Of a DNA stretch of 64,000 bases, positions 14,812 through 30,649 are shown piece by piece (the stretch's first letter is position 1; the number at the start of each line of letters is the position of its first letter). Source of the DNA: Pseudoxanthomonas suwonensis (lineage in GTDB: Bacteria > Pseudomonadota > Gammaproteobacteria > Xanthomonadales > Xanthomonadaceae); contig NZ_PDWP01000014.1 in NCBI RefSeq assembly GCF_010093235.1, positions 1-64,000 of the forward strand, read 5' to 3'. Both the position numbers and the translations under genes were made by a program. The notes beneath the pieces were generated by a model. It had not been told where the DNA came from. It searched no databases and worked only from the letters and a program-made list of their open reading frames with translations.

Positions 14812-15567
14812 TCAACGCACCGGCACGTCATAGGCAGTGCACGGATCCGGCTCCGGCTGCAGCGTGTAGTGCCACCACTCCTGCGGGTAGTTGCCGAAGC
14901 CGCGGATCTGCATCGCCGCGAGCAGGCGCTGCCGGTTGGCCTGCGCCGCTTCCGGCACCGGCGCGTCGGTACTGGACAACGGATCGAACAGGTCGAACGG
15001 CGTGCCCATGTGCAGCGGCTCGCAGCCTGCATCGGTGCACTGGAGCAGGGTCAGGTCCACGGTGGCGCCGCGGCTGTGGCCGGAGCTGTCGGAGATGTAG
15101 TCCGGCACCAGGTCGGTCTTGTCCACCCGCGGGTACCAGCGCGCCTTCTGCCGCGGATCGTCCGGGCCCTGGGCCCAGTCCATGAAGGCCTGCACCGAGC
15201 GCACCGGCCGGTAGCAGTCGTAGACGAGCAGGCCGACCCCCTGGGACTGCAGGTCGTGCTGCACCCGCGCCAGGGCCTCGGCCACCTGCGGCAGCAGCAG
15301 GCAGGCATTGGCCTCGTAACCGGGCACCGGCGCGCCGGTGAAGTTGTTGGAACCGAAGTAGCGCGCCTCGACCTGGATGCCGGGACCCAGCGTGCGCACC
15401 TCGACCAGGCCGGCCTCCTCCGCGGTTTCCGCCGGGGATACCTGCACCTCGCACGCCATCGCGGCCGACGGCAGCAGCAGCAAGGCGATCAGGCGGCCGC
15501 GGATGCGGCGGGGAAGGACTTCAGCGGCAGCCGCGTTCGTGCACGAAGGCGAGGTCCTGGTAGTCAT
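14812..15567 (-). CDS. ddpX: D-alanyl-D-alanine dipeptidase (VanX/DdpX family), exported
   Basis: A 251-residue zinc dipeptidase. The full VanX active site is present: H164 and D171 in SGHSRGATVDL and H233 in EWWHYT as zinc ligands, E230 as catalytic base, and R120 in YDCYRPV for substrate. It would split D-Ala-D-Ala from stem peptides into free D-alanine. The N-terminus has a hydrophobic signal (LIALLLLPSAAMA), so it acts in the periplasm, unlike cytoplasmic VanX of enterococci. The first ATG overlaps the upstream serine hydrolase by 47 bases. No vanHA genes are present, so a nutritional or recycling role is more likely than vancomycin resistance. Confidence 0.88.
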   Translation of the reverse strand: MTTRTSPSCTNAAAAEVLPRRIRGRLIALLLLPSAAMACEVQVSPAETAEEAGLVEVRTLGPGIQVEARYFGSNNFTGAPVPGYEANACLLLPQVAEALARVQHDLQSQGVGLLVYDCYRPVRSVQAFMDWAQGPDDPRQKARWYPRVDKTDLVPDYISDSSGHSRGATVDLTLLQCTDAGCEPLHMGTPFDLFDPLSSTDAPVPEAAQANRQRLLAAMQIRGFGNYPQEWWHYTLQPEPDPCTAYDVPVR

Positions 15568-17080
15568 AGCTGAAGTCCGCTTCCGGATCGACCTTGGACA
15601 GGCGCAGCGTACTCCCGTCCGCGCCGGGCGGGTGAAGCCAGGCTTCGGCGTCCACGCCGTCGTCGTCCCAGTCCACCAGCCAGCGCTCGCCGACCCGCAT
15701 CAGCCGCCCACGCATGCGGGGCGAGCGCGCCGAGGCGAAACCGACGCCATCCCCGCGCGGGCACAGCGCCACCTCGCCGAACCAGGGATCGCGCCAGATC
15801 CCCAGCAGCGCCGTGGCCTCGCGGCGCGTCGCCGGGCGCCGCGCGCGGGTGTCCGGCGCCGGCTCGGCCCGGCGGCGCAGGGCGCGTTCGCGTTCCAGCA
15901 GGGCGGCGTAATGGGCCACGTCCAGGGCCGGTTCCGGGCGGGTGTAGCGCTTGGCCAGCACCTGTCCGAGCACCGTGCGCGCGTCCTCGGCCTCGCCGTT
16001 GACGAGGATGACGATGCCGGTGCGCAGGTCCGGCAGCAGGATCACCGAGGAATACATCCCCGACAGCGTGCCGGTATGGGCGACCTTCCACTGCCCGTCC
16101 ATGTCCGACAGGCGCCACCCGTAGCCGTAGGCATGGAAGTGGCTGTTGTCCCATTCGCGCATGCGCCGGCCCACCGGCATCGGCACGTGGCCGGTCCATG
16201 TCGCCTGGCGCTGCATGGCCGACAGCCACGGATGCGCCGGATCCAGCCACATCCCGATCCAGCGCAGCATGTCGTCCAGGCTGCAGCGGATCCCCCCGGC
16301 GGCCATCGAGGTGAGATCCGGCACCACGCCCCGCTCCGGCGGCGCCGGCAGGTTGCGCCCGTCCACCCGCCGGTGCGGACGCGCGATCGGGCCGGCGTCG
16401 GCGACGTTCCAGCTGCCCACGCGGCAGCCCTCCATGCCCAGCGGCGCGAACAGCTCCTCGCGCACCAGCTGTGCGTACGGCTTGCCGCCGGCCGCCGCGG
16501 CGACCTCCCCGGCCACCACGTACAGCAGGTTGTCGTAGGCGTAACCGGAACGGAAGCTGGCCACCGGCCGCAGATGCGCGAGCCCGGCGATGATGTCGGC
16601 GCGGCTGAAGTCGTTGGGCTCCGGCCACAGCATCAGGTCGCCCGCGCCGAGGCCCAGGCCGCTGTTGTGGACCAGCAGGTCGCGCACCTGCATGTTCGCG
16701 GTGACCCATGGGTCGTGCATGCGGAACCGCGGCAGGTGCTTCACCACCGGGTCGTCCCAGCGCAACCTGCCCCGGTCGACCATCCGCGCCAGCACCGCCG
16801 CGGTCATGGCCTTGCTGTTGGAGGCGATATTGAACAGGGCCTGCGGCGTCACCGGCTCGCCGCTGCCGGCAGCCAGCTCGCCGCGGGTGACGACCGCCGT
16901 CACCCGGCCGTCCTCGATCACGCCGACCGCGATGCCGGGCAGGTCGTAGCGCGCGACCACCTCGTCCACGGCCTTTTCCGCGAAGGCCTGCGCCGGACCG
17001 GAAGGCAGGTCCGCGGCGATCGCCGGAATCGCAAAAAAAGCGGCCGCCAGGGCGGCCGCAGGAGGGAGGAAACGCAGCAT
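15521..17080 (-). CDS. Beta-lactamase-fold serine hydrolase, periplasmic
   Basis: A 519-residue protein with a signal peptide (MLRFLPPAAALAAAFFAIPA, cleavage near IAA). The class C beta-lactamase/DD-peptidase fold shows all three motifs: S87-N-S-K90, Y182-D-N184 and HTG in VAHTGTLSG. Residues beyond about 400 form an extra C-terminal domain that reads as a beta-rich lipocalin-like module (GIWRDPWFGEVALCPRGDG). Likely chemistry is D-aminopeptidase, DD-carboxypeptidase or esterase; a true beta-lactamase is less likely given its length and neighbours. It lies 56 bases after the TonB receptor. An intrinsic-terminator structure is embedded in codons 8-16, which should limit read-through into this gene. 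Confidence 0.85.
   Translation of the reverse strand: MLRFLPPAAALAAAFFAIPAIAADLPSGPAQAFAEKAVDEVVARYDLPGIAVGVIEDGRVTAVVTRGELAAGSGEPVTPQALFNIASNSKAMTAAVLARMVDRGRLRWDDPVVKHLPRFRMHDPWVTANMQVRDLLVHNSGLGLGAGDLMLWPEPNDFSRADIIAGLAHLRPVASFRSGYAYDNLLYVVAGEVAAAAGGKPYAQLVREELFAPLGMEGCRVGSWNVADAGPIARPHRRVDGRNLPAPPERGVVPDLTSMAAGGIRCSLDDMLRWIGMWLDPAHPWLSAMQRQATWTGHVPMPVGRRMREWDNSHFHAYGYGWRLSDMDGQWKVAHTGTLSGMYSSVILLPDLRTGIVILVNGEAEDARTVLGQVLAKRYTRPEPALDVAHYAALLERERALRRRAEPAPDTRARRPATRREATALLGIWRDPWFGEVALCPRGDGVGFASARSPRMRGRLMRVGERWLVDWDDDGVDAEAWLHPPGADGSTLRLSKVDPEADFSYDYQDLAFVHERGCR
17033..17059 (-). terminator. Intrinsic terminator inside the 5' end of the serine hydrolase gene
   Basis: On the minus strand, GCGGCCGC-CCTG-GCGGCCGC (17040-17059) is a perfect 8-bp GC-only stem with a 4-base loop. 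Seven consecutive T follow (17033-17039). It sits about 80 bases past the TonB receptor stop and about 20 bases inside the next reading frame, encoding part of its signal peptide. It probably terminates most receptor transcripts and makes downstream expression conditional on translation of the leader. Confidence 0.75.
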
Positions 17081-17136
17081 CACCTGCTCCCCGATGCGGG
17101 CCTGTGGTCCATCACCAGGCCCGCGCCGTCCGGTTG

Positions 17137-20100
17137 TCAGTACTCCAGCGCCAGCACCAGCTGGGCATAGCGCGGGGACTGCAGGAAGCGCTCGCGGCCG
17201 AAGAACTCGTCGCGGGTGCCAATGCTCGATTCCAGGTCCTGGTAGACCCAGACCGGCCGCTGGCGGTTGAAGATGTTGTTGGCCGAAAGCTTGGCCGAGA
17301 ATTTCGCCGGGCCGAAATCGCGCTGGTAGGCCACGCTCAGGCCGACGTCGATGTACCAGGGCATGCGCCCGGCGCCGCCGCGCGCGGAGTGCTCGTACAC
17401 GCGGTCGGAGGTGCTCCAGGTGTCGCCTTCCTGCGGATTGGCGAAGGCTTCCTCGGGGGTGCACTTGTCCACGCACACGAAGTAGCTGTGGTAGAGCTTC
17501 CAGTTGTACGGGTTGCCGACGCCGAAGCCGGTGATCGGGCCGCCGGAGCGGGCGTCCACGGTCGCGCCCAGGCTCCAGTTCCCGGTCAGGGCGTAGGTGC
17601 CGCGCAGCTTGACCTGGTGGCGGTGGTCGTTGGCCAGCGGGCCGTGGCCGCGGTAGTTCACGAACGGGTCGTCGAAGTTCTCGGTGCGGCCGGTGTCGCC
17701 GAAGTTGGTGTCGGTGTTGACCGGGCCCTCGGCGTTGCCCTCGTTCCACGACAGCGTGTACGAGGCATTGAACGCCCACTTGCCGTCCCAGGCGCGGTCC
17801 AGCTGCAGCTCCAGCGCCTTGTAGGTGCGCCTGGGCTTGCTCCAGCCGCGCTGCCCGGTCGGGGTCGAGCCCACGTACTCCCACTCGCCGTCGATGTACT
17901 CGAAGTCGTCCGACTCGGTCCAGTAGCCGCCCCTGGAGGTGTCGACGGTGATGTAGCCGTCGTTGCTGCCGTCGCAGTCGGTGTCGCCCCAGATGGTGAC
18001 GTCCTTGCCCGGGTTGCCCATCACCCACACGCTGGGCACGCGGCCGCAGTGGGTGGCGGTGATGTTGATGTCGTCGATGGCGTTGTGCAGCTTGCGGTAG
18101 ATGCCGCGCGCGCCCCACGACCATTTCTCGCCCAGCACCTGCTGGAAGCCCAGGATCAGCTCGTCCTGGTAGACCGGGTCCATGTCGGCATCGACCTCGG
18201 CGCGCAGGTCGCCGACGGTGCCGTCGCCCTGGTCGTCGTCGAAGCCCATGAACTCGCCCAGCACCGGCACCGCGTACTGGACGCCGTCGCGCTCGCGGAT
18301 CTCCCAGCCCTCGAGTCCGTGGTAGCTGCGCGCGTCGAGCAGGGCGCCGCCCTGCTTGATGTTGATGACGTTGGCCACCGGCAGGAAGTAGCGGCCGACG
18401 TTGCCGAACACCTTCATCGTGCCCTGGCCCGCCGGATCCCAGGAGAAGCCCAGGCGCGGCGCCCACATGTCGTCCATCCTGATGTAGGTGCGGCCTTCGG
18501 CGTCCTTGTTGTTGAACTCCTCGTAGCGCAGGCCCAGGTTCAGGACCAGGTTGTCGGTGATCGACCAGTTGTCCTCGATGTAGTAGGCGCGGTTGGTCGA
18601 TTCGAACTCGCCGAAGATCGCGTACTGGCGGGCGCGCACGCAGGCGGTGTAGCCGGCCGGGACCAGGAACCCGCCGCAGTTGGAGTTGTTGGTCAGCGGG
18701 GTGGCGGTATACACGTTGTACTGCACGCCGCCGGGACCGGAGTAGACCTGGTCGAGGTCGGAGGTGTTGGTCTCGTCGTCGATGCCGAAGCGCAGCAGGT
18801 GGTCGCCCAGCACCCACTCGAAGTCGATCCGGCTCTGCTCGCGCTCGTCGTTGCGGTCGTAGACGGTGGGGTTGCTGGTGCAGCCCAGGGGCACGCCCGG
18901 ATCGGGCACGCCGGAGGCGCGGGTGACGTAGTTGCAGTCCACGTCGTTGGGCGAACCGGTGACGCTGTTGCGCTCGTTGCGGCCGTGCATCACCTTCATC
19001 GACAGGTTGTCGGTCAGGTACGAGCTCCAGGTCAGCGCCCAGTTGGTGCCGCCGGTCTCCGAGTAGGAGTCGCTGAGCTTCTGGCCGACGGTGTCGCTGT
19101 CGAAGTCGTAGGCGTAGGTGGCGGTGTCGGTGCGGTTCTCGTTGGAGAACGCCATCAGGCTCAGCAGGTTGCGGTCGGTGATCTGCCAGTCCAGGGTCGT
19201 GCCCCAGAAGCCGTCGTCGGAGTCGCCGCGGTCGAACGAGGTGCCGGCGTCGTTGGTGTTCTCCGGCTCGACCTTGCGGCCCTCGTACATGGCGAAGAAG
19301 AACATCCGGTCCTTCACGATCGGGCCCGATGCCCACACGTTCAGGCGGGTGGAGTCGGTCCTGTCCCTGCTGCGGGTCAGGTAGCGGTCGCCGTCCAGGT
19401 AGCTGTTGCGCGCCGACGACTCCCAGTCCTTCGGAGCCCACACCAGCTTGGAACCATAGTGGAACTCGTTGGTACCGGACCGTGCCACGGCGTTGACCAC
19501 GCCGCCGGTGGTGCGGCCGAACTCCACCGAGTAGCCGCCGGTCTTGACCTGGAAGTCCTCGTAGAAGTCGAACGGCGCCTCGGAGAAGCCGACGCGGTTG
19601 TAGAAGTCGGTGACGTTGAGGCCGTTGACGTAGAACGCGTTCTCCGCCACCGAGGAACCGCCGAAGGAGATGCCGCCGAACGCGGCGCTGCCGGCGGCCA
19701 CGCCGGGCGCCAGCAGCGCCACCGAGGTGACGTTGCGGTCCACCGGCAGGCGCGCCAGCTCCTCGGCGTTGATGTTCATCGCCGACTCGGTGGAGGTGAC
19801 GTCCACCGGCAGGACCACGCGGCTGCCGACCACCTCGATGCCTTCGAGGGTGGCGGGTTCGGCGACCAGGTTCACCGAGGTGGTCGCGCCCAGGGTCACG
19901 GTCACGTCGGCCTGCCTGCCCCCTTCGGCCTGCACCGTGTAGCTGCCCGGCGGCAGCAGCGGCAGGCGGTAGCTGCCGTCCTCGCCTGCGGTGACCGTGC
20001 GGCTGAAGCCGGTGGCCGGATTGGTGATGGTCACCCTCGCCCCGGCCTCCGCCCTGCCGGCGACGGCGCCGGTAGCGCTCTGGGCCATCGCCAGCGGTGC

Positions 20101-20166
20101 CATCGCGCCCAGGCACGTGCCGAGCGCCGCGGCCAGGGCCGCCTTCCTCAGGATCCTGCTGTCCAT
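17137..20166 (-). CDS. Oar-like TonB-dependent outer-membrane receptor
   Basis: A 1009-residue outer-membrane protein. A signal peptide (about 1-28) is followed by a carboxypeptidase-regulatory-like beta domain (about 35-105, including TVTAGEDGSYRLPLLPPGSYTV). Then come a plug domain with LEGIEVVGSR, FYVNGLNVTDFYN and VKTGGYSVEFGRTTGGVVN, and a beta-barrel to the C-terminal LALEY, ending in an aromatic residue as outer-membrane proteins do. The regulatory domain plus plug order is that of Oar-type receptors, often used for large ligands such as peptides or glycans. The ligand is unknown; neighbours point to peptidoglycan fragments. The upstream transglutaminase gene overlaps its start by 19 bases, implying coupling. 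Confidence 0.9.
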   Translation of the reverse strand: MDSRILRKAALAAALGTCLGAMAPLAMAQSATGAVAGRAEAGARVTITNPATGFSRTVTAGEDGSYRLPLLPPGSYTVQAEGGRQADVTVTLGATTSVNLVAEPATLEGIEVVGSRVVLPVDVTSTESAMNINAEELARLPVDRNVTSVALLAPGVAAGSAAFGGISFGGSSVAENAFYVNGLNVTDFYNRVGFSEAPFDFYEDFQVKTGGYSVEFGRTTGGVVNAVARSGTNEFHYGSKLVWAPKDWESSARNSYLDGDRYLTRSRDRTDSTRLNVWASGPIVKDRMFFFAMYEGRKVEPENTNDAGTSFDRGDSDDGFWGTTLDWQITDRNLLSLMAFSNENRTDTATYAYDFDSDTVGQKLSDSYSETGGTNWALTWSSYLTDNLSMKVMHGRNERNSVTGSPNDVDCNYVTRASGVPDPGVPLGCTSNPTVYDRNDEREQSRIDFEWVLGDHLLRFGIDDETNTSDLDQVYSGPGGVQYNVYTATPLTNNSNCGGFLVPAGYTACVRARQYAIFGEFESTNRAYYIEDNWSITDNLVLNLGLRYEEFNNKDAEGRTYIRMDDMWAPRLGFSWDPAGQGTMKVFGNVGRYFLPVANVINIKQGGALLDARSYHGLEGWEIRERDGVQYAVPVLGEFMGFDDDQGDGTVGDLRAEVDADMDPVYQDELILGFQQVLGEKWSWGARGIYRKLHNAIDDINITATHCGRVPSVWVMGNPGKDVTIWGDTDCDGSNDGYITVDTSRGGYWTESDDFEYIDGEWEYVGSTPTGQRGWSKPRRTYKALELQLDRAWDGKWAFNASYTLSWNEGNAEGPVNTDTNFGDTGRTENFDDPFVNYRGHGPLANDHRHQVKLRGTYALTGNWSLGATVDARSGGPITGFGVGNPYNWKLYHSYFVCVDKCTPEEAFANPQEGDTWSTSDRVYEHSARGGAGRMPWYIDVGLSVAYQRDFGPAKFSAKLSANNIFNRQRPVWVYQDLESSIGTRDEFFGRERFLQSPRYAQLVLALEY

Positions 20167-21701
20167 CCCCGTCTCTCTCCCGCAGTGGTGTTGAGGTCAT
20201 CCCCGCCCGTCCGGCCGCCTTCCCCGACCGGTAGCATCCGCCACTGGAACCGGTAGTCCCACTGGTCGAAATAGAGGTTGCCGCCCCGCCACTCGACTTC
20301 GCCGCGCTGCGAGTCCACGGTCTCGGAGCGGAAGTGGGTCTTGGCGGGCACGAAGTCGCGCGCGTAGTCGTCGTTGAAGGCGATGCGGTAGGCGTCCAGG
20401 CCGCCCAGGTAGAACCAGCGCAGCGCCGGGTCGTCGCTTTCCAGCTGGCCGGTGGTCACGTCCATCGGCAGCCAGCCGTAGGGACGCAGGTACATCCAGC
20501 CCCAGTCGTGCATGTTGTCGTAGCCGACGTCCTCGTCCGAGTAGGTCCAGCCGGACTGCCAGCGCGCGGGGATGCCGTTGAGCCGCAGCAGCGTGATCAG
20601 CAGCAGGGTCTGCTGGCCGCAGTCGGCATGCCCGGCCCTGAGCGCGTGGTCGCTGATGTTGGAGATGGTCGAGTACTCGCGGGCGCCGGCCCAGGGAATG
20701 CGGTCGACCGCCGCGAACAGCTTCTGCGCGATGCGGTAGGGATTGGTCTCGTTCCCCACCACCTGGTGCGAGAAGGCACGCAGCCCCGGGGTGAACACCA
20801 CGTGCGGCGGACGCTCGGCGAGGAACGGCGCCAGCGTCGGATCCTTGCGATCCACCGCCTGTACCCGCGCCGGATCGACCCGCACGCGGCGCGCGTACAC
20901 GGTCAGCTCGTAGGTCACCGAGAATTCGGTGGGCCTGCCGGACTGCGCCGTGGCTTCCAGGTAGACGGTGCGCATCGGCGCGCTTTCCGGCGCTACCCTG
21001 CCGCCGGCCGGCGAGGTCCGGACCAGGCGGATCCCTTCCTGCTGCGCGGGGATCGCACGCGGGTACGGAATCCATGCCCGCACCGTCTCGCCCGCCGGCA
21101 CCGCATCAGGCTCGACGATGATCGACTGCGTCACCTCGAGCCGGCGCGGTGCCACGCTGGTGGCGCCGCCCGCGGAGGCGGCAAGCACCTCGGCATGGTG
21201 CGGATGCAGGCGTTCGAACGGGCCTTCGGCGAACGGCCGCACCGGTGGCGCGCGGCGTGCCGCCGCCTCGGGGCTGAGCCGGAACAGGTTGGACACCGCG
21301 CGCCTGAACCAGCGGCGCTCCCCGTCGATGTCCATGTGCTCGACCAGGCCTGCCCGGTCCCAGGCCTCGAACTCGGCCTCGCGCAGGTCGGGAATCTGCC
21401 GCCGCAGCTGCGCCAGCACGCCTTCGCGGTTCAGGCTGAAGTCCAGGCGGATACGACGCATGCGCTCGCGCTCGAACTCCAGCGCGCGCCGCTGCAGGCC
21501 CGCCGTTTCCCAGCGGGCAAGCAGGTCGGCGATGCCTTCCTCGGCCTCGGCGAACCGCCCCTCGTCCACCGCGGCCACCACCTGCGGCAGCGAGTCCGGC
21601 ACCGCGGCCACCGCGCTCCCCAGCGCGAACAGCAGCAGCAGGCCCGCGCCCATGCGCGGCAACGGCCCGCCGCAGACCGCAGTCCGCACAACGGCGGGCA
21701 T
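20148..21701 (-). CDS. Transglutaminase-like cysteine protease-fold protein, exported
   Basis: About 517 residues from the ATG at 21701; a TTG at 21788 would add 29. An N-terminal hydrophobic segment MGAGLLLLFALGSAVAA serves as signal. The N-terminal third is helical (RFAEAEEGIADLLARWE), a beta domain follows, and then the transglutaminase core with a full Cys-His-Asp triad in HADCGQQ, NMHDWGWMY and MDVTTG. Bacterial members are usually periplasmic peptidases or amidases acting on peptides, so action on stem peptides is plausible in this locus. It is the first gene of the leftward set and its stop overlaps the TonB receptor start. Confidence 0.82.
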   Translation of the reverse strand: MPAVVRTAVCGGPLPRMGAGLLLLFALGSAVAAVPDSLPQVVAAVDEGRFAEAEEGIADLLARWETAGLQRRALEFERERMRRIRLDFSLNREGVLAQLRRQIPDLREAEFEAWDRAGLVEHMDIDGERRWFRRAVSNLFRLSPEAAARRAPPVRPFAEGPFERLHPHHAEVLAASAGGATSVAPRRLEVTQSIIVEPDAVPAGETVRAWIPYPRAIPAQQEGIRLVRTSPAGGRVAPESAPMRTVYLEATAQSGRPTEFSVTYELTVYARRVRVDPARVQAVDRKDPTLAPFLAERPPHVVFTPGLRAFSHQVVGNETNPYRIAQKLFAAVDRIPWAGAREYSTISNISDHALRAGHADCGQQTLLLITLLRLNGIPARWQSGWTYSDEDVGYDNMHDWGWMYLRPYGWLPMDVTTGQLESDDPALRWFYLGGLDAYRIAFNDDYARDFVPAKTHFRSETVDSQRGEVEWRGGNLYFDQWDYRFQWRMLPVGEGGRTGGDDLNTTAGERRGWTAGS

Positions 21702-21798
21702 CCCTGGTTGGCGAAGACGGGCTTCCACGACGACACTTCCCGCGTGCGGTGGTGCAGCCGGTGTAACACGCACGGAAGGCGGGGTCAATAATTTATTC

Positions 21799-21829
21799 TT
21801 GACCTCGCAAATCTTCGGAATAACTATTC
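21799..21829 (+). promoter_or_regulatory. Predicted promoter with palindromic operator for the P60-epimerase operon
   Basis: TTGACC at 21799-21804 is a good -35 element. TAACTA at 21821-21826 lies 16 bases on as a -10. Overlapping the -10 is the dyad GAATA-AC-TATTC (21818-21829), and a further TATTCTT half-site lies at 21794-21800. The stretch is markedly AT-rich against its surroundings and is shared with the divergent transglutaminase-receptor genes. The MurR/RpiR-type regulator encoded by the third gene is the obvious candidate to bind here. That is inference. Confidence 0.5.
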
Positions 21830-21862
21830 TTCAATACGTCCGTGCAGAGGGGAGGCCGCCAC

Positions 21863-23317
21863 ATGACCCCGCCAGTCGCGCGGAACAACCCCGATGGCCG
21901 GCGCGTGGCCGCGCTGGCCGCAGGCCTGCTGGCCGGGCTGGTGCTGGCGCTGCCCGCCTGGAGCACCCCCGCCCGAGAAGACGCGGCTACCGCGGTGGTC
22001 GGCGTACGCCTGCCCGACCTGGATCCCCGGCACTGGATCAGCCGGCTGGAACAGCCCCACCGCATCATCCTCGACCGCGAGGGCATTGCCGCGCAAAACG
22101 CACGCATGCGCGCCGGCGATCCCTCGATCCAGGACATCGCCGCCCTGCCCGACCCGCTGCCGGGGAACCTCGTGCGCGCACGGGTGGAGAAGCTCTCGTC
22201 GCCACCGGCCCGTCCGCTCTACGACGAACAGGGCAAGGCGGTGCCGGCGCGAAGGCTCTCGGCACTGCAGCGCGAACTTGCGCTGGACGCGATCCCGGCC
22301 AGCCGCCCGCTCCGCTACGGCCTGGTGGTGCACCGCGCCGCGCTGCGCACCTTCCCGACGATGCTGCGGGTGTTCTCCTCGCCCGGCGACACGGATATCG
22401 ACCGCTTCCAGGAATCGGCGCTGTTTCCCGGCGACGCGGTGGCGGTGCTGCACGAAAGCCGCGACCGGCAATGGCTGTTCGTGACCTCCGAGCGGTACTC
22501 CGCGTGGATCGAGGCCCGGCACGTGGCCATCGGAACGCGCGAGGAAGTACTGGGCTATGCCAGCCGCACGCCGTACATCGTGGTCACCGGCGCCACCGTC
22601 CGCACCACCTACACCCCGGAGGAGCCCCGGGTGTCGGCACTGCAGCTGGACATGGGCCTGCGCCTGCCGCTGCGCACGGGGCTGGATCCGTTGCGCACGG
22701 TCAACGGCCAGCATCCCTACGCCTCGCACGTGGTCGACCTGCCGGCGCGCCGCGCCGATGGCGGCCTGGAATTCGTGCCGGCCCTCATCCCGCGCTCGGC
22801 CGACGTGGCCGCCGACTACCTGCCGCTGACCCCGGCCAACCTCATCACGCAGGCGTTCAAGTTCCTCGGCGAGCGTTACGGCTGGGGCCATTCCTACGAC
22901 GCACGCGACTGCAGCGGCTTCGTGTCCGAGGTCTACCGCAGCTTCGGCATCCTCATGCCGCGCAATACCCGCGACCAGGCAGTGAGCCCGGCGCTGGACC
23001 GGATCGGCTTCGAGGCCGGCGACGACCCTGCACGCCGCAAGGCCGCGGTACAGGGACTGCAGGCCGGTGACCTCGTCTACATCCCGGGCCACGTGATGAT
23101 GGCCATCGGCCATCGCGACGGCATGGCCTACGTGATCCACGACACCAACGGCGGCGGCTGGCGCGGCCCGGACGGCAAGCGCGTATCCGCCGGCCTCAAC
23201 GGCGTGTCGGTCACCCCGCTGGAACCGCTGCTGTTCAACGAGGGCGAAACCTACGTGGACCGCATGACCAGCATCCAGCGGCTCCGTCCGCATCCCCTTC
23301 CCGAGACATCGAAGTGA
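21863..23317 (+). CDS. NlpC/P60 family peptidase with SH3-like domains, exported
   Basis: A 484-residue protein with an N-terminal signal/anchor (about residues 14-34). A helical region precedes two SH3b-like modules (about 150-225 and 225-300), and the C-terminal NlpC/P60 domain spans about 320-460. Catalytic residues are C350 in ARDCSGFV, H410 in PGHVMMAIG and H426 in VIHDTNG. This layout resembles YkfC-type gamma-D-glutamyl-L-diamino-acid endopeptidases, which release L-Ala-D-Glu from murein peptides, the substrate of the next enzyme. AGGGGAGG lies just upstream and supports ATG 21863. The TGA overlaps the next gene start (GTGA). Confidence 0.88.
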   Translation: MTPPVARNNPDGRRVAALAAGLLAGLVLALPAWSTPAREDAATAVVGVRLPDLDPRHWISRLEQPHRIILDREGIAAQNARMRAGDPSIQDIAALPDPLPGNLVRARVEKLSSPPARPLYDEQGKAVPARRLSALQRELALDAIPASRPLRYGLVVHRAALRTFPTMLRVFSSPGDTDIDRFQESALFPGDAVAVLHESRDRQWLFVTSERYSAWIEARHVAIGTREEVLGYASRTPYIVVTGATVRTTYTPEEPRVSALQLDMGLRLPLRTGLDPLRTVNGQHPYASHVVDLPARRADGGLEFVPALIPRSADVAADYLPLTPANLITQAFKFLGERYGWGHSYDARDCSGFVSEVYRSFGILMPRNTRDQAVSPALDRIGFEAGDDPARRKAAVQGLQAGDLVYIPGHVMMAIGHRDGMAYVIHDTNGGGWRGPDGKRVSAGLNGVSVTPLEPLLFNEGETYVDRMTSIQRLRPHPLPETSK

Positions 23318-24411
23318 AGATCACCGACATCGAACTGCGCATGCTGCGCGTGCCGCTGAAGACCCCGTTCAAGACCGCGCTGCGCACGGTCGACACGGTC
23401 GAGGACATCGTGGTCCTGGTGCGCACCGACACCGGCCACACCGGCCACGGCGAGGCCCCGGCCACCGCGGTGATCACCGGCGATACCCACGGCTCCATCG
23501 CCGAGGCCATCGACCGCTTCATCAAGCCGCGCCTGGTCGGCCAGGAGATCGCCAACCTCAACCGCATCTGCGGCCTGATCCAGGGCGCGCTGGAGCGCAA
23601 CACCAGCGCCAAGGCGGCGGTGGAGATCGCGGTCTACGACCTGTGGGGGCAGCTCTACGACGCGCCCCTGTACAGGATGCTGGGCGGCGGCGACCCGGTG
23701 ATCACCACCGACATCACCATCTCGGTCGACCACATCGACAAGATGGTTGCCGATTCGATCTCGGCGGTGGAACGCGGCTTCGACTCGCTGAAGATCAAGG
23801 TGGGCAAGGACATCGGCCTGGACATCGAGCGGGTCAAGGCGATCCATGCCGCGGTCGAGGGCCGCGCCCTGCTGCGCCTGGACGCCAACCAGGGCTGGAC
23901 CACGAAACAGGCGGTCTACGCCATGCAGACCCTCGAGGATGCCGGCGTGCTGCTGGAGCTGCTGGAGCAGCCGGTCAAGGCCGCCGACATCGAGGGCCTG
24001 AAGTACGTCACCGACCGGGTCCACACCCCGGTGATGGCCGACGAGAGCGTGTTCGGCCCGGACCAGGTGTTCGACCTGATCCAGCGCCGCGCCGCCGACA
24101 TCATCAACATCAAACTGATGAAGACCGGCGGCCTGTCCAACGCCATCCGCATCGCCGACATCGCCTCGATCTACGGCGTGCAATGCATGATCGGCTGCAT
24201 GATCGAATCGGCCATCTCGGTGGCCGCCGCCGTGCACCTGGCCGTGGCCAAGGCCGATGCCATCACCAAGGTCGACCTGGACGGGCCCTCGCTGGGCCAG
24301 TTCAACCCGGTCGAGGGCGGGGTCATCTTCGAGGAATCGGAGATCAGCATCACCGAGGCGCCGGGCCTGGGCATCCGCCAGATCCGTGGCCTGGAGCCGC
24401 TGGCGCGCTGA
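23314..24411 (+). CDS. ycjG: L-Ala-D/L-Glu epimerase (dipeptide epimerase, enolase superfamily)
   Basis: A 365-residue enzyme converting L-Ala-D-Glu to L-Ala-L-Glu. The muconate-lactonizing subgroup residues are all present: K160-I-K162, metal ligands D190, E218 and D243, and K267 in NIKLMKTGG. The dipeptide-specific D321-L-D323 motif, which holds the substrate ammonium group, is also intact. Positions match the B. subtilis enzyme (K162, K268, D321, D323) almost exactly. The start is GTG, overlapping the P60 stop by four bases, so the two are translationally coupled. Activity on the released dipeptide would feed glutamate and alanine into metabolism. Confidence 0.93.
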   Translation: MKITDIELRMLRVPLKTPFKTALRTVDTVEDIVVLVRTDTGHTGHGEAPATAVITGDTHGSIAEAIDRFIKPRLVGQEIANLNRICGLIQGALERNTSAKAAVEIAVYDLWGQLYDAPLYRMLGGGDPVITTDITISVDHIDKMVADSISAVERGFDSLKIKVGKDIGLDIERVKAIHAAVEGRALLRLDANQGWTTKQAVYAMQTLEDAGVLLELLEQPVKAADIEGLKYVTDRVHTPVMADESVFGPDQVFDLIQRRAADIINIKLMKTGGLSNAIRIADIASIYGVQCMIGCMIESAISVAAAVHLAVAKADAITKVDLDGPSLGQFNPVEGGVIFEESEISITEAPGLGIRQIRGLEPLAR

Positions 24412-24454
24412 GCGCCGGTTGCCACGCCACGGCCCTCCGGATGAAGATCGCCCC

Positions 24455-25297
24455 ATGCCGCCCCTGGTAAAGATCCGTTCCGAACGCGACCAGATGTCGG
24501 CCATCGAGCGCCGCATCGCCGACTTCATCCTCGACAACGCCCACCTGCTGCGCGACTACTCCTCGCAGCAGCTGGCCAGCGCCCTGGGCGTGAGCCAGTC
24601 CTCGGTGGTGAAGTTCAGCCAGAAGCTCGGCTTCCGCGGCTATCCCGACCTGAAGTTCAGCATCGGCCAGGCGCTGGCCCGCAACGGGGGCGACGCACCG
24701 GCCGCTCCCCCGCAGTCCGACGACGCCTATGCGCGCCTGGAGGAAGGCCTGCGCCGGAGCAAGGCGGCCGCCGAGGAGGAGACCCGCCTGATCAATCCGC
24801 GCGAGCGGATCGAGGCCATCGTCGGCATGGTCGACGGCGCGGACAAGGTGTTCGTCTGCGGCCTGGGCGACGACGGCCTGTTCGCGCGCGAGTTCGCCAT
24901 GCGCCTGTCGCTGCTGGGGGTGCTGGTCGTGCACCACGCCGACCCCATCCTGATGATGGCCAACCTGTCCGCGGCGCGGCCGGGCGACGTGCTGCTGCTG
25001 CTCTCGGAGTTCGGCCAGCTGGCGCCGCTGCCCCAGCTCAGCCGCCAGTTCCAGGCCTGCGAAGGCAAGGTGGTGTCAATCACCCGGCACACCTCCAACC
25101 CGCTGCGCGCCCATGCCGACGCGGCGCTGGTGGTGTCCGCGCACGATCCGGCCCCGCACGTGGCCCAGCTGCTGTACCGCTCCTCGCTGCAGTACCTGCT
25201 CGACTTCCTGTTCGTGCTGCTGTGCCAGGCCAACCCGGAACGGCACCGCCAGCTCAACATCAACCTCGAGCGCATCCAGCACCTGCTCGATACCTGA
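24455..25297 (+). CDS. MurR/RpiR family transcriptional regulator
   Basis: A 280-residue regulator. The N-terminal HTH-6 domain (about 1-77) contains YSSQQLASALGVSQSSVVKF. A SIS sugar-phosphate-binding domain follows (about 120-255), with VFVCGLGDDGLFAREFAMR and VLLLLSEFGQLAPL. SIS ligands in this family are phosphosugars such as MurNAc-6-phosphate, but the SIS here lacks the usual serine-rich S-x-S-G phosphate loop (SEFGQ instead), so another ligand is possible. It is the third gene of the operon and a candidate autoregulator acting at the palindrome near 21818. Confidence 0.88.
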   Translation: MPPLVKIRSERDQMSAIERRIADFILDNAHLLRDYSSQQLASALGVSQSSVVKFSQKLGFRGYPDLKFSIGQALARNGGDAPAAPPQSDDAYARLEEGLRRSKAAAEEETRLINPRERIEAIVGMVDGADKVFVCGLGDDGLFAREFAMRLSLLGVLVVHHADPILMMANLSAARPGDVLLLLSEFGQLAPLPQLSRQFQACEGKVVSITRHTSNPLRAHADAALVVSAHDPAPHVAQLLYRSSLQYLLDFLFVLLCQANPERHRQLNINLERIQHLLDT

Positions 25298-25304
25298 GGC
25301 GACC

Positions 25305-26135
25305 ATGACCCAGCCCCGCAGCCGCCCGCTTCGCCTGCACCCGTTCCTGCGCCTGCTGGCGACCGGGGTCCTGCTGCTGGCCGGCGCCAGCGCCACCGTG
25401 CTGGCCGCGTGGCCAGCCGCGCAGGAGGATGGGACCGCAGCCGCGCCGCTGCAGCTGGTGGTCGTGACCATCTCCGACTGGGACGCCACCACCGGCACCC
25501 TGCGCTACTACGGGCGCGCCACGCCCGACGCGCCATGGCGCGAGGCCGGGCGCTTCGCGGTGAGCATCGGCCGCAGCGGCGCGGCCTGGGGCGAGGGCCT
25601 GCATCCGGCGGCCGCCCAGGGCGAGGGACCCGCCAAGCGCGAGGGCGATGGGCGCAGCCCGGCCGGTGTGTTCGCGCTGGGGCCCGCGTTCGGCTACCCG
25701 CCGGCGGACGAGGTCGACACTGCCCTGCCCTACCGGCGGATGGACGCCAGCCACTGGTGCATGGACGTGCCAGGGTCGCCGCACTACAACCGCATCGTCG
25801 ACGCGCGCGAGGTCGGCCAGGCCGCGGTGGCCGGTTCCAGCGAACCCATGCGCCTGGACCTCCACCACGACGGCGATCCGCGCTACCGCCTGGGCCTGGT
25901 GATCGCGCACAACCCCGGCAACACGCCCGGCCACGGCAGCTGCATCTTCGCCCACCTGTGGCGGCAGCCCGGCGAGCCCACCGCAGGCTGCACCGCCATG
26001 GCCGAGGAGGACATGCGCCGCCTGCTGGCCTGGCTCGATCCGGCCGCGCAGCCGCGCTTCGTGCTGCTGCCGCGCACCGAGTACGCGCGCCTGGCGCCGC
26101 GCTGGGATCTCCCGGCGGCGGGATCCGCCCGATGA
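25305..26135 (+). CDS. L,D-transpeptidase catalytic-domain (YkuD-like) protein, exported
   Basis: A 276-residue protein with an N-terminal signal/anchor (about 14-35). Its YkuD-like catalytic domain is of the COG3786 type: KREGDGRSPAGVF, then H210-G-S-C213-I-F-A-H217 and the catalytic-type Cys at 229 in TAGCTAM. L,D-transpeptidases form 3-3 cross-links or attach lipoproteins to murein, and some act as L,D-carboxypeptidases. A trimming role on tetrapeptides would fit the locus, but the activity is not determined by sequence. It lies 7 bases after the regulator, and its stop overlaps the next gene (ATGA). Confidence 0.85.
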   Translation: MTQPRSRPLRLHPFLRLLATGVLLLAGASATVLAAWPAAQEDGTAAAPLQLVVVTISDWDATTGTLRYYGRATPDAPWREAGRFAVSIGRSGAAWGEGLHPAAAQGEGPAKREGDGRSPAGVFALGPAFGYPPADEVDTALPYRRMDASHWCMDVPGSPHYNRIVDAREVGQAAVAGSSEPMRLDLHHDGDPRYRLGLVIAHNPGNTPGHGSCIFAHLWRQPGEPTAGCTAMAEEDMRRLLAWLDPAAQPRFVLLPRTEYARLAPRWDLPAAGSAR

Positions 26136-27406
26136 GGTGGCCCGGCGCCACCACGCGCGTGCTGCTGGCGCTGGCTGCAGGCGCCATCGCCGGCCTGGCC
26201 CTGGCCCATGCCAGCGCGCCGGCCGCGGCCACGGCGGCCGCCATCGCCCAGCCGATCGGCAAGCTGTGGCTCAGCGCGCTGCAGATGACGGTGGTGCCGC
26301 TGGTGCTGTCCCTGGTGATCCTGGGCGTGGCCAACGCCGCCAACGCGGCCGCCTCCGGCCGCGTGGCGCGACGGGCGATGCTGGTGTTCGTGGTCCTGCT
26401 GTCGCTGTTCTCCGGTTACGCCGCGGTCGTTGCGCCGACGGTGCTGGCCTCGGTCGAACCGGACCCGCAGCTTGCCGCCAGCCTGCAGGGCGGCATGGTC
26501 GCGGCACCGGCCGGCGGCGCGCCCTCGCTGGCGCAGTGGATCGGCAACATCGTTCCCTCCAACGCGATCATGGCCGCGGCCCAGGGGGCGATGCTGCCGC
26601 TGGTGGTGTTCGCGCTGTTCTTCGGCTTCGCCCTCACCCGCATCGCCGCCGAGCGCCGCGCCCAGGTCATCGGCCTGTGCCAGGGCATTGCCGACGCGAT
26701 GATCGTGATCGTGCACTGGGTGCTGCTGGCGGCGCCGCTGGGCGTGTTCGCGCTGATGCTCGCGGTGTGCGCGCAGGCGGGCCTTGGCGTGGTCGGCGCG
26801 CTGGCCGGCTACATCGTCCTGCAATGCGGGCTGTACCTCGGCGCGACGGCGATCTGCTACGTGCTGGTGGCGGTGTCGGCGGGACGCTCGCCCCTGGCCT
26901 TCGCACGGGCGGCGCTGCCGGGGCAGGGGGTGGCGGCCAGCACCCAGTCCTCGCTGGCCACGCTGCCGGCGGTGCTGGAGAGCGCGCGCGAGCGCCTGGG
27001 CATTCCGGCCACGGTGGCCGGCCTGGTGCTGCCGATGGCGGTGACCCTGTTCCGCATCACCAGCCCGATCCAGTACGTGACCGCCGCCTGCTTCGTGGCC
27101 TGGGCCTATGGCATCGAGCTGGCCCCGCTGCAGCTGGCGGCCGGCGCGGCGCTGGCGGTGGTGATCAGCATGGGGTCGGTCGGCCTGCCCGGCCAGGTGA
27201 GCTTCATGGCCACGGTGCTGCCGGTGACCCAGTCCATGGGCCTGCCGCTCGAACCCCTGGGCCTGCTGCTGGCGGTGGACACCATCCCCGACGTGTTCGC
27301 CACCACCGGCAACGTCACCGGCGACCTGGCCGCGACCAGCATCGTCGCGCGCCACAGCCCGGATGCGGTGGATCCGGACGAGCCGCCGCCTGTCGAGGCA
27401 GCCTGA
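26132..27406 (+). CDS. Dicarboxylate/amino acid:cation symporter (DAACS family)
   Basis: A 424-residue inner-membrane transporter with eight or so membrane helices and the two re-entrant hairpins of the GltPh fold. Hairpin 1 carries ASTQSSLATLP (the Ser-rich motif), hairpin 2 carries SMGSVGLPGQV, and helix 8 has DTIPDVFATTGNVTGDL. The NMDGT motif of helix 7 is replaced by RITSP, so substrate or ion use may differ from glutamate carriers. As last gene of the P60-epimerase operon it plausibly imports glutamate, aspartate or a small peptide product. The 4-base overlap with the upstream gene shows tight coupling. Confidence 0.88.
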   Translation: MRWPGATTRVLLALAAGAIAGLALAHASAPAAATAAAIAQPIGKLWLSALQMTVVPLVLSLVILGVANAANAAASGRVARRAMLVFVVLLSLFSGYAAVVAPTVLASVEPDPQLAASLQGGMVAAPAGGAPSLAQWIGNIVPSNAIMAAAQGAMLPLVVFALFFGFALTRIAAERRAQVIGLCQGIADAMIVIVHWVLLAAPLGVFALMLAVCAQAGLGVVGALAGYIVLQCGLYLGATAICYVLVAVSAGRSPLAFARAALPGQGVAASTQSSLATLPAVLESARERLGIPATVAGLVLPMAVTLFRITSPIQYVTAACFVAWAYGIELAPLQLAAGAALAVVISMGSVGLPGQVSFMATVLPVTQSMGLPLEPLGLLLAVDTIPDVFATTGNVTGDLAATSIVARHSPDAVDPDEPPPVEAA

Positions 27407-28453: not shown

Positions 28454-30649
28454 TCAGCGTGCCGCCGGGGCCAGCAGTTCGAATGCCGCCGGCTCTCCCG
28501 CAACCGACGATGGCGCCACCCACACGTCGAACCAGCCCGGCTCGGCACCATGGGTGCCGTCGGCGCGGGTAAAGGCCAGGTCCGCGCGGGCCAGGCGGAA
28601 CTCCACCTCGCACGACTCTCCCGGCTGCAGCAGCAGCTTCCTGAACCCCTTCAACTCGCGCACCGGCCGCACCCGGCTGGCGACGCGGTCGTGGACGTAC
28701 AGCTGCACCACCTCCTCCACCGCGCGCGTGCCGGCATTGCGCACGCTGGCGCGGACCACCGCCTCGCCATCCCAGGGCACCGCGGCGGCGTCCACCCTGG
28801 TCGCGCCGTATTCGATCCGGCTGTAGGTCAGTCCATGGCCGAACGGATAGAGCGCCGCATGCGGGTGCTCGCGCCAACGCGCCTTGAATTCCTTCATGTC
28901 CGGCAACTCCGGACGTCCGGTCCGCGGATGGTTGTAGAAGTACGGTTGCTGCCCGGAATCGTGCGGGAAACTCACCGGCAGGCGCCCGGAGGGGCTGTGG
29001 TCGCCGAACAGCACGTCGGCCACGGCATGCCCGGCCTGGCTGCCGAGGAACCAGGTCACCAGGATCGCCTGCGCGTCGCGTACGGCGCCCTGCAGCGCCA
29101 GCGCGCGGCCGTTGCGCAGCAGCACCACGACCGGCTTGCCGGTGGCGGCGACGGCCTCGGCCAGCGCCTGCTGCACCGGCGGAAGCTCGATCCGCACGCG
29201 CGACTGCGCCTCGCCGCTGTAACGCTGCGGCTCGCCCAGCGCCAGCACCACCACGTCGGCCTCGCGCGCGGCGGCGACCGCCGCCTCGATGCCACCGTCC
29301 AGCGGCGCTTCCAGGCCGCAGCCGTCCACGACCTGCAGCGCGGCGCCCTTCGGCAGCGCGGCACGGATGCCGGCCTCCAGGCCGACGTAGCGGCTGCGGT
29401 CGCCGAACAGGGTCCAGCAGCCTTCGATGTTGTCCATGTCGCGCGCGAACGGCCCGACCAGGGCGATGCGCGCGTCGCGGCGCAGCGGCAGCACCCCGCC
29501 CTCGTTTTTCAGCAGGACCATCGCGCGCCGCGCGGCATCGCGCGCCAGGGCCTCGTGCCCGGCCAGAAGCGAGGTATCGGCCTCGCGTGCCGGGTCCAGG
29601 CAACGGTAGGGATCATCGAACAGTCCGATCGCCGCCTTGAGCTGCAGCACGCGGCGCACCGCGGCATCGAGCTGCTCCATCGGCACCTTGCCCGATTCCA
29701 CCAGCGCCGGCAGGTGGGCGGCGTAGAAGCCGCTCTGCATGCTCATGTCCATGCCGGCGGTGAAGGCCAGTTCGGTGGCATGGGCCTCGTCGGCGGCGTA
29801 GCCGTGGGCCAGCAGCTCCATGTCGGCGGTGTAGTCGGACACCACGACGCCGGGGAAGCCCCATTCGTTGCGCAGCACTCCGGTCAGCAACGCGTGGTTG
29901 GCGCTGGCCGGGACGCCGTTGATGTCGTTGAAGGCGGTCATCACCGCCAGCGCGCCGGCATCGAGCGCGGCCTTGAACGGCGGCAGGTGGACGTCGCGCA
30001 GGGTGCCTTCGGAGATCTCGACGAAGTTGTAGTCCAGGCCCGCGGTCACCGCGCCGTAGGCGACGAAGTGCTTGGCCGTGGCCAGCAGCGAATCCGGCGC
30101 GCGCAGGTCGCCGCCCTGGAAGCCGCGCACGCGCGCGGCGGCGAACCGGCAGCCCAGGTAGACGTCCTCGCCGGCGCCTTCGGCGCCACGGCCCCAGCGC
30201 TGGTCACGGGCGATGTCCACTGCCGGCGCGTAGGTCCAGTGGATGCCGGCGGCAGTGGCCTCGACCGCGGTGGCGCGGGCAGTGCGCTCGGCCAGCTCCG
30301 GCTCGAAGCTCGCCGCCTCGCCCAGCGGGATCGGGAATACGGTGCGCATGCCGTGGATCACGTCCGCAGCCAGCAGCACGGGAATGCCCAGCCGGCTCTC
30401 CTCCACCGCGACGCGCTGGATCTCGCGCCCGGCCGCGGCGCCGACGCCGTTGAACAGGGTGCCGACGCGGCCTGCGCGCACCTGCTCCAGCACCTCCGCC
30501 GCGTTGCGCACGTTGGTCTCGGGATTCACGTCCGGCGCGAAGGGGCGGACCATGTCGGCGAAGACGCCGAGCTGGCCGGCCTTCTCCTCCAGCGTCATGC
30601 TCTGGATCAGCGATTCGACCCGCGGGTCGGCGGGGAGGGTGGTCGGCAT
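28454..30649 (-). CDS. Glycoside hydrolase family 3 beta-glucosidase
   Basis: A 731-residue enzyme with the GH3 layout: N-terminal TIM barrel (about 1-330), alpha/beta sandwich (about 360-580) and fibronectin-III-like C-terminal domain (about 620-725). The nucleophile Asp is in VVVSDYTADME, and the acid/base region is GEPQRYSGEAQSRVRIELP. It resembles BglX in order and length but shows no signal peptide at this start, so it is probably cytoplasmic unless a start further upstream exists. It would hydrolyse beta-linked glucosides or short oligosaccharides. It is monocistronic and convergent with the preceding small gene. Confidence 0.9.
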   Translation of the reverse strand: MPTTLPADPRVESLIQSMTLEEKAGQLGVFADMVRPFAPDVNPETNVRNAAEVLEQVRAGRVGTLFNGVGAAAGREIQRVAVEESRLGIPVLLAADVIHGMRTVFPIPLGEAASFEPELAERTARATAVEATAAGIHWTYAPAVDIARDQRWGRGAEGAGEDVYLGCRFAAARVRGFQGGDLRAPDSLLATAKHFVAYGAVTAGLDYNFVEISEGTLRDVHLPPFKAALDAGALAVMTAFNDINGVPASANHALLTGVLRNEWGFPGVVVSDYTADMELLAHGYAADEAHATELAFTAGMDMSMQSGFYAAHLPALVESGKVPMEQLDAAVRRVLQLKAAIGLFDDPYRCLDPAREADTSLLAGHEALARDAARRAMVLLKNEGGVLPLRRDARIALVGPFARDMDNIEGCWTLFGDRSRYVGLEAGIRAALPKGAALQVVDGCGLEAPLDGGIEAAVAAAREADVVVLALGEPQRYSGEAQSRVRIELPPVQQALAEAVAATGKPVVVLLRNGRALALQGAVRDAQAILVTWFLGSQAGHAVADVLFGDHSPSGRLPVSFPHDSGQQPYFYNHPRTGRPELPDMKEFKARWREHPHAALYPFGHGLTYSRIEYGATRVDAAAVPWDGEAVVRASVRNAGTRAVEEVVQLYVHDRVASRVRPVRELKGFRKLLLQPGESCEVEFRLARADLAFTRADGTHGAEPGWFDVWVAPSSVAGEPAAFELLAPAAR

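Follow-up and report, generated by a model that had tools for sequence, protein, structure and literature searches.

Within 64,000 nucleotides of Pseudoxanthomonas suwonensis DNA (contig NZ_PDWP01000014.1, positions 1 to 64,000, hereafter the window; host genome 3.42 Mb), nine genes arranged around a divergent region form a real conserved unit that combines a TonB-dependent outer-membrane receptor with murein-peptide enzyme families, an inner-membrane carrier and a regulator. An earlier note on this DNA had proposed that the locus is used to consume peptidoglycan peptides. With a probability of about two in three, we read it as a system for TonB-dependent scavenging of murein peptides, which would supply the cell with carbon, nitrogen, a precursor of lysine and D-amino acids; the substrate of the receptor is a prediction of this reading. 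That the locus is a unit of murein-peptide enzyme families, as the note held, is supported by linkage, gene content and the retention of active-site residues.

A profile and open reading frame (ORF) check of the window found all nine previously named genes at 14812-27406, in the order and on the strands first proposed. It also confirmed two divergent gene sets with a shared region near 21.8 kb, since the left and right arms part at about 21702-21862. The genes and the short elements between the arms are as follows.

14812-15567, minus strand: VanX-like M15 peptidase with a signal-peptide-like start (Peptidase_M15, PF01427, 135.9 bits)
15521-17080, minus strand: serine beta-lactamase-fold hydrolase (PF00144, 210 bits)
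17137-20166, minus strand: TonB receptor with CarboxypepD_reg, Plug and barrel domains (Pfam domains, synteny and an AlphaFold model)
20148-21701, longest ORF to 21788, minus strand: transglutaminase-like protein with a Cys-His-Asp triad (Transglut_core, PF01841, 58.6 bits)
21761-21769, no strand: palindrome GTGTAACAC, outer element of the divergent region, recurring with variants such as GTGTAGCAC in the alignment of relatives
21783-21798, no strand: box GGTCAATAATTTATTC, proposed RpiR operator or promoter element (co-occurrence with RpiR)
21818-21829, no strand: palindrome GAATAACTATTC, second proposed operator element (match counts in its own genome and in RpiR loci)
21863-23317, plus strand: SH3b-NlpC/P60 protein with a signal-peptide-like start, predicted endopeptidase for gamma-D-Glu-meso-diaminopimelate (mDAP), DvLysin/PnpA-like (SH3_6, PF12913; NLPC_P60, PF00877)
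23314-24411, plus strand: L-Ala-D/L-Glu dipeptide epimerase, YkfB-like, no signal peptide seen (best PDB match 1jpm)
24446-25297, plus strand: MurR/RpiR-family regulator (HTH_6 78.9 bits and SIS 49.1 bits, both above cut-off)
25305-26135, plus strand: YkuD-fold protein, possibly L,D-carboxypeptidase or L,D-transpeptidase-like (PF03734, a weak 26.5 bits against a cut-off of 23.4)
26132-27406, plus strand: SDF (DAACS) symporter subfamily with an altered substrate site (PF00375, 263 bits)

Several neighbours overlap (15521/15567, 20148/20166, 23314/23317 and 26132/26135), giving the locus an operon-like layout. For the transglutaminase-like gene, the ATG at 21701 is a likelier start than the TTG at 21788 because the latter would place the conserved promoter box inside the gene.

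Evidence that these genes belong together comes from a survey of 149 genomes of the family, including that of the window, which we searched with the receptor and with the epimerase. Receptor orthologues were defined by at least 47% identity and at least 710 bits; paralogues among the matches listed had 34-42% identity and no more than 596 bits. An orthologous receptor is present in 70 genomes, and all 70 also carry the epimerase. The two genes share a contig with less than 5 kb between them in 67 of these; contig breaks intervene in two others (G007 and G136), and in the last (G003) the genes are on different contigs. The epimerase occurs without an orthologous receptor in 20 genomes, and 59 have neither gene. 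Fisher's test gives 1.5e-24 for this association over the 149 genomes, uncorrected for kinship.

Gene content leads to the same conclusion. Among the named receptor loci, which are the best 80 of 341 relatives in the receptor alignment and come from GTDB genomes, the transglutaminase-like gene recurs in 79, the serine hydrolase in 78, the P60 and epimerase genes in 77 each, RpiR in 74, the YkuD-fold gene in 68, the VanX-like gene in 67 and the SDF carrier in 48. P60 and epimerase are found together in 77, and the other three loci (L091, L092 and L166) stop at contig ends. The earlier note had counted a receptor occurring mostly without these two genes as evidence against itself, and these counts, with those of the 70 genomes, contradict that outcome. 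As a control, the eight window genes flanking the cluster recur in 0-15 of the 80 loci, compared to 48-80 for the cluster genes; one of the eight, a GH3 gene, mostly lies beyond the 10-kb flank of these loci. We also hand-picked 52 family loci from the 90 genomes with an epimerase, taking about one per genus plus most of those lacking the orthologous receptor; 18 of the 52 have no orthologous receptor in view. Here the cluster genes range from 19 of 52 (VanX-like) to 50 of 52 (P60), and the flanking genes other than GH3 from 0 to 11. The GH3 gene itself, beta-glucosidase-like and adjoining the cluster at 28454-30649 of the window, is present in 17. The family and named loci overlap: 129 epimerase loci represent 116 distinct epimerase genes, and residue, box and carrier counts are given per locus.

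Within the best 80 of 341, receptor loci occur in genera that include Pseudoxanthomonas, Luteimonas, Lysobacter, Stenotrophomonas, Xanthomonas (X. massiliensis), Dyella, Rhodanobacter, Luteibacter, Frateuria, Dokdonella, Tahibacter and Steroidobacter, the last of which we take to lie outside the order. Two loci are unusual. A contig titled Bacillus subtilis SK7B5 (L159) holds a Stenotrophomonas-like copy of the cluster and is probably contamination, and genome G057 (loci L064 and L187) carries the system twice, in linked copies that differ in receptor type, one epimerase copy bearing an in-frame stop.

The residues expected of working enzymes are kept in nearly every relative. We aligned one best row per locus and dropped rows shorter than 70% of the window protein (eight for the serine hydrolase, two for YkuD, one for the epimerase and none for the rest). 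In the epimerase, R24, K160, K162, D190, E218, D243, K267, D321 and D323 are invariant (129/129); we take these to include two catalytic lysines, three metal ligands and, in D321/D323 and R24, substrate residues. Its best PDB match is a solved L-Ala-D/L-Glu epimerase (1jpm, 3.5e-101 over 354 residues), so that the original assignment holds. The protein falls below two curated NCBIfam cut-offs (NF041118, 250.7 against 500 bits; NF011708, 110 against 343 bits), neither of which we take to model the Bacillus-type epimerase.

The P60 protein retains Y339, W341, D349, C350, S351, R367 and H410, including the catalytic Cys and His, in 128/128 rows. Its best PDB matches are 3m1u (DvLysin, 5.5e-28), with the match beginning at residue 130, and then 6sqx (PnpA). 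SH3_6, NLPC_P60 and the Cys-His dyad are all present, and Pfam did not detect an N-terminal clip domain. According to the accessible text on YkfC, its Asp256 contacts the free amine of L-Ala and is essential to enzymes that need a free N-terminal L-Ala (PMC2954226); at this position, Asn368 of the window protein, the cluster proteins have Asn in 127 of 128 rows and Asp in one. The protein thus falls outside the YkfC free-L-Ala class, and it is closest to the muropeptide endopeptidases of the DvLysin/PnpA/EcgA class, which, in the portions available of their description, cut the gamma-D-Glu-mDAP bond in muropeptides (PMC7860986). The same source describes PnpA as secreted via type II secretion and cutting the peptidoglycan of other bacteria, an activity proposed to act against competitors or to gain nutrients from dead neighbours (PMC7860986). 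By its sequence, the P60 enzyme probably acts on sugar-linked peptides as well. The earlier idea that it releases L-Ala-D-Glu therefore stands as regards the bond-cleaving family and needs an addition: because the enzyme lacks the YkfC Asp and resembles muropeptide endopeptidases, an amidase has to work ahead of the epimerase.

On the left arm, the M15 protein keeps H164 and D171 in 84/84 rows and E230 and H233 in 82/84, the other two having gaps; three zinc ligands (H, D and H) and a catalytic Glu are what we assume defines VanX. Its best PDB match is a D-Ala-D-Ala dipeptidase (1r44, 1.6e-41), and its score lies under the curated VanX cut-off (NF033115, 183 against 320 bits). The VanX-type label is thus borne out by residues and best match and not by the curated model, and we would call this dipeptidase a family M15 member that is VanX-like only. 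The serine hydrolase has S87-x-x-K90, Y182-x-N184 and H335-x-G337 in all 103 rows and may be a D-Ala carboxypeptidase, a D-aminopeptidase or an esterase; counts from a second beta-lactamase query (BLA2) were inflated by cross-matches with the first (BLA) and were not used. The transglutaminase-like triad C390/H427/D443 (longest-ORF numbering) is kept in 109/109 rows. H217, G228 and C229 of the YkuD-fold protein are kept in 106/106, and with a Pfam score barely above cut-off its activity is putative. Searches of PDB sequences with the receptor, YkuD-fold and transglutaminase-like proteins returned nothing useful.

Genes added to the block in relatives point to the same chemistry. Among the 80 named loci, we identified a DUF819 membrane protein in 40, a diaminopimelate decarboxylase in 37, an M19 dipeptidase in 34, an APC permease in the place of the carrier in 20 and an Amidase_2 (AmiD-like) lipoprotein in 12. 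The best PDB match of the cluster decarboxylase is a solved diaminopimelate decarboxylase (2p3e, 3.7e-108). We searched eight genomes for further copies, including five selected for having the decarboxylase in their cluster. In each of these five the cluster enzyme (456-472 bits) is accompanied by a second match of 292-319 bits in a frame of 875-1024 residues, making the cluster gene an extra copy. In the other three (the window genome, S. maltophilia D457 and Steroidobacter), nothing but the long-frame kind exceeds the cut-off; Steroidobacter has a further 182-bit match below it. Finding a second diaminopimelate decarboxylase next to an endopeptidase for gamma-D-Glu-mDAP speaks strongly for mDAP peptides and, since relatives also add the M19 dipeptidase and the AmiD-like amidase, peptidoglycan stem peptides are the substrate that we favor. 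The AmiD-like lipoprotein amidase of the window genome is unlinked to the cluster and is 64% identical to the Rhodanobacter cluster version. Separately, the DUF819 protein, which can lie between the transglutaminase-like and P60 genes (for example L105:7100-8218), is a candidate second carrier; a listing of papers on DUF819 gives no carrier role of this sort.

The carrier of the window itself departs from its characterized relatives. Aligned with a solved SDF aspartate transporter, it has Ala opposite the Arg of transmembrane helix 8 (TM8) and LFRITSP in the region of the NMDG motif. Across 75 rows, the TM8 position is Ala in 72 and Arg308 is kept in all 75, within an Arg308-[ILM]-[TAN]-S-P motif that replaces the NMDG of the solved relatives. 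We take the TM8 Arg (R397 of GltPh) and the NMDGT motif to be the marks of a Glu/Asp symporter. Because the first is Ala and the second has become the Arg308 motif, that label is unsuitable and a typical Glu/Asp symporter is ruled out; the SDF family membership implied by the earlier DAACS assignment stands. The substrate may instead be a murein-derived amino acid or dipeptide. An SDF subfamily with an Arg in the TM7 motif and none in TM8 is possibly a new substrate class for the carrier family.

Between the two arms, the window carries GTGTAACAC, GGTCAATAATTTATTCTTG and GAATAACTATTC. The middle box, allowing up to two mismatches, is present in the divergent region of 109 of 111 loci with RpiR. 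It appears in 4 of 16 loci with no RpiR in view, three of which (L140, L150 and L158) are at contig ends and the fourth of which (L064) has a linked second copy that holds RpiR; the other 12 have none. Counting one locus per distinct epimerase gene, with the box anywhere in the locus, gives 96/98 and 4/16. Elsewhere the box has 3 matches in 2.68 Mb. The window genome contains a single match at up to two mismatches; in seven other genomes the cluster box matches with 0-2 mismatches, and additional matches at 2 occur in five of these. The palindrome GAATAACTATTC has its only exact match in its own genome in the divergent region and occurs in 32 of 111 RpiR loci with at most one mismatch. We therefore rejected the palindrome GAATAANTATTC alone as a general operator (32/111) in favor of the GGTCAATAANTTATTC box. 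Two loci, L066 and L077, retain RpiR and the box and have neither the orthologous receptor nor the transglutaminase-like gene, and both RpiR and the box are missing from L067, whose alternative receptor is that of L066 (81%). The box is therefore likelier to be an RpiR operator than a part of the left-arm genes, and we consider it a candidate RpiR operator with predicted binding. On the epimerase tree, RpiR and box amount to nearly one event, and we therefore do not take Fisher values as proof. The murein-peptide locus is probably co-regulated.

The receptor has had a more eventful history than its neighbors. Its Plug (PF07715) and barrel (PF00593) domains both exceed the Pfam cut-off, and an AlphaFold model (predicted TM-score, pTM, 0.78; mean predicted local distance difference test, pLDDT, 79) suggests a large barrel preceded by an N-terminal beta domain. 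One clade of the epimerase tree, with support of 96, unites the window, four rows of the same genus and Pseudoxanthomonas sp. J31; the named set leaves out G060 of the same genus, which lacks the orthologous receptor and has an epimerase of only 65% identity. Five of those clade members have a receptor, and in the receptor tree these five are not monophyletic (approximately unbiased test, p = 2e-40). The comparison covered the window receptor (17137-20166) and loci L032, L033, L034, L056, L089 and L090. Among the best 80 of 341, the nearest named locus is that of J31, with a receptor 95% identical; otherwise the window receptor is nearest those of Luteimonas and Lysobacter (77-74%), and congeners are only 47-48% identical. 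We conclude that the receptor gene has moved between genera while the rest of the cluster stayed congruent. The adjoining transglutaminase-like gene is closer to those congeners (67-82%) than to Luteimonas (65%), which, from identities and not a tree, suggests that the receptor alone was swapped and its neighbors kept.

Replacement can go further. In 5 of the 18 family loci without the orthologous receptor (L066, L067, L068, L082 and L085), an unrelated TonB receptor (TBDRy) occupies the same divergent slot beside P60, and in one (L077) another type (TBDRx) lies downstream of the symporter. The remaining 12 have none of the three tested receptor types; two of these have the orthologue on another contig (L065, at a contig break, and L078, in G003), and at L073 a match of 30% to a TonB receptor lies at a distance of 3 kb. 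The slot is thus often kept and refilled, as expected of an attacked surface protein serving a fixed pathway, and the core can manage without it. A paralogous Oar-like receptor (34%) is also present in the window genome (G000:C66:53025-56012, L083) and in G010 of the same genus (L084); the 20-kb stretches around these paralogues gave no match to the other cluster queries.

We propose the following mechanism. The TonB receptor would carry murein fragments, either muropeptides or free stem peptides, over the outer membrane. Once in the periplasm, the fragments would meet the serine hydrolase and the VanX-like enzyme, both of known family and intact residues, which would handle D-Ala ends and D-Ala-D-Ala, and the YkuD-fold and transglutaminase-like proteins, likewise recognizable by family and residues, may act on further bonds. 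P60, again from its family and residues, would cleave gamma-D-Glu-mDAP, and an AmiD-type amidase, unlinked here and within the cluster in some relatives, would release the peptide from N-acetylmuramic acid (MurNAc). Transport of the products over the inner membrane would fall to the SDF carrier, which in relatives gives way to, or is accompanied by, the APC permease and the DUF819 protein. In the cytoplasm, homology and residues predict that the epimerase converts L-Ala-D-Glu to L-Ala-L-Glu; judging from gene content, the second decarboxylase of relatives may turn mDAP into lysine. RpiR, sensing a ligand, would govern both arms through the conserved divergent operator with which it co-occurs. 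More broadly, this receptor family and its unrelated stand-ins could be devoted to importing murein fragments into a pathway leading to amino acids and lysine, with a new SDF subfamily, altered in TM7 and TM8, for L-Ala-D-Glu or diaminopimelate, an RpiR switch, and a receptor that is exchanged while the pathway stays. This fuller proposal is tentative, and we give it a little less than an even chance.

Several observations weigh against scavenging by a dedicated receptor. The P60-epimerase-YkuD core exists without any tested receptor type in several genomes (L069, L070, L076, L086 and L087), so the receptor is not always needed, and in G003 the receptor sits on a different contig from the cluster. 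The VanX-like gene is hardly better kept than the flanking GH3 gene in the family loci (19 against 17 of 52). Two RpiR loci, L059 and L161, have no box. Among the genomes examined, the orthologous receptor and cluster are bound to one lineage plus Steroidobacter, and the 70-row epimerase tree shows a single change of the box and two of RpiR, so that much of the co-occurrence reflects one inherited assembly. PDB sequence searches found no solved structure close enough to indicate the ligand of the receptor, and transport, growth and induction are predictions of our reading. As to distribution, a class-wide sample of 369 genomes led us to reject a wide spread outside the lineage. The system is lineage-bound because the P60 orthologue (E at most 1e-50) occurs in only four of these, the window genome and three of the same family. 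The receptor (at most 1e-160) occurs in five, the fifth of which (G327) has an Oar-like receptor with no other cluster gene within 16 kb.

The absence of an orthologous receptor beside the epimerase in 18 of 52 family loci, 12 of which have none of the three tested types (the orthologue lying elsewhere for L065 and L078), would suit a system of self-recycling, in which the enzymes and carrier reuse the cell's own turnover peptides and the receptor either takes back what the cell itself has shed or binds a different ligand, its place in the locus then being a chance of assembly. P60-epimerase pairs serve recycling in other bacteria, as far as the available text of PMC2954226 describes them. Nevertheless, the orthologous receptor never occurs without the epimerase in the sampled family genomes (70/70), the box sits between both arms, and receptor replacement preserves position, all of which make this explanation unlikely. 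The receptor might instead import other D-amino-acid or gamma-glutamyl peptides, such as peptide antibiotics or capsule peptides, for degradation by the enzymes: the transglutaminase-like and beta-lactamase-fold proteins are not murein-specific, and the serine hydrolase weakly matches, among others, a D-aminopeptidase model. However, the VanX-like, P60, L-Ala-D/L-Glu epimerase, Amidase_2 and extra decarboxylase genes jointly fit murein best, and we regard such a substrate as very improbable.

Oar of Myxococcus is linked to protease secretion, which raises the question of whether the Oar-like receptor serves hydrolase secretion rather than uptake in a locus that attacks the walls of competitors. 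The type II secretion of the P60 relative PnpA and its action on other bacteria's peptidoglycan, in what is accessible of PMC7860986, fit this idea. An epimerase without a signal, an inner-membrane carrier and a diaminopimelate decarboxylase are catabolic and inward-pointing, though, and leave it barely credible. Scavenging of murein peptides is the reading that we carry forward.

The locus resembles several known systems in part. As in TonB-dependent nutrient loci, such as the Caulobacter N-acetylglucosamine (GlcNAc) and Xanthomonas carbohydrate loci, a receptor, enzymes, an inner-membrane carrier and a local regulator are co-located and, here, co-inherited. The Xanthomonas loci use sugars. 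AmpG, Opp/MppA and the ATP-binding cassette (ABC) transporter recycling of Agrobacterium likewise reuse murein fragments; they are inner-membrane routes, and we know of no dedicated outer-membrane receptor for any of them. The Caulobacter loci also use sugars, according to the part available of PMC13046382, in contrast to the D-amino-acid stem-peptide chemistry expected here. Bacillus ykfABCD (YkfB, YkfC) and the ykfB-ykfC pairs of other phyla, as described in the accessible text, likewise place a P60 enzyme for gamma-D-Glu-diamino-acid bonds next to an L-Ala-D/L-Glu epimerase for murein peptides (PMC2954226). Compared to Bacillus, the P60 here has Asn for the YkfC Asp256. The present locus also includes genes for an outer-membrane receptor, an SDF carrier, an RpiR switch and the VanX-like, serine hydrolase and transglutaminase-like proteins. 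DvLysin, PnpA and EcgA, in the available portions of PMC7860986, share the SH3b1 plus NlpC/P60 architecture, in agreement with the best PDB matches 3m1u and 6sqx; the P60 of this locus differs in its epimerase and receptor context and in an N-terminal clip domain that Pfam did not detect.

The earlier note had also suggested that a TonB receptor for muropeptides would be new. In agreement, full-text literature searches found none, although subscription papers were mostly outside their coverage and absence is not proof; the nearest receptor described in the accessible sources is the Caulobacter GlcNAc TonB receptor (PMC13046382). The receptor, the carrier with its altered site and the operator provide testable handles on the locus. 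To our knowledge, murein recycling is usually drawn as an inner-membrane process, and the re-entry of shed or foreign muropeptides through the outer membrane has largely been left open. If our reading is true, bacteria of soil and water and predators of the Lysobacter type would feed on peptidoglycan by way of a dedicated receptor, with effects on the muropeptide pool sensed by hosts and neighbors.

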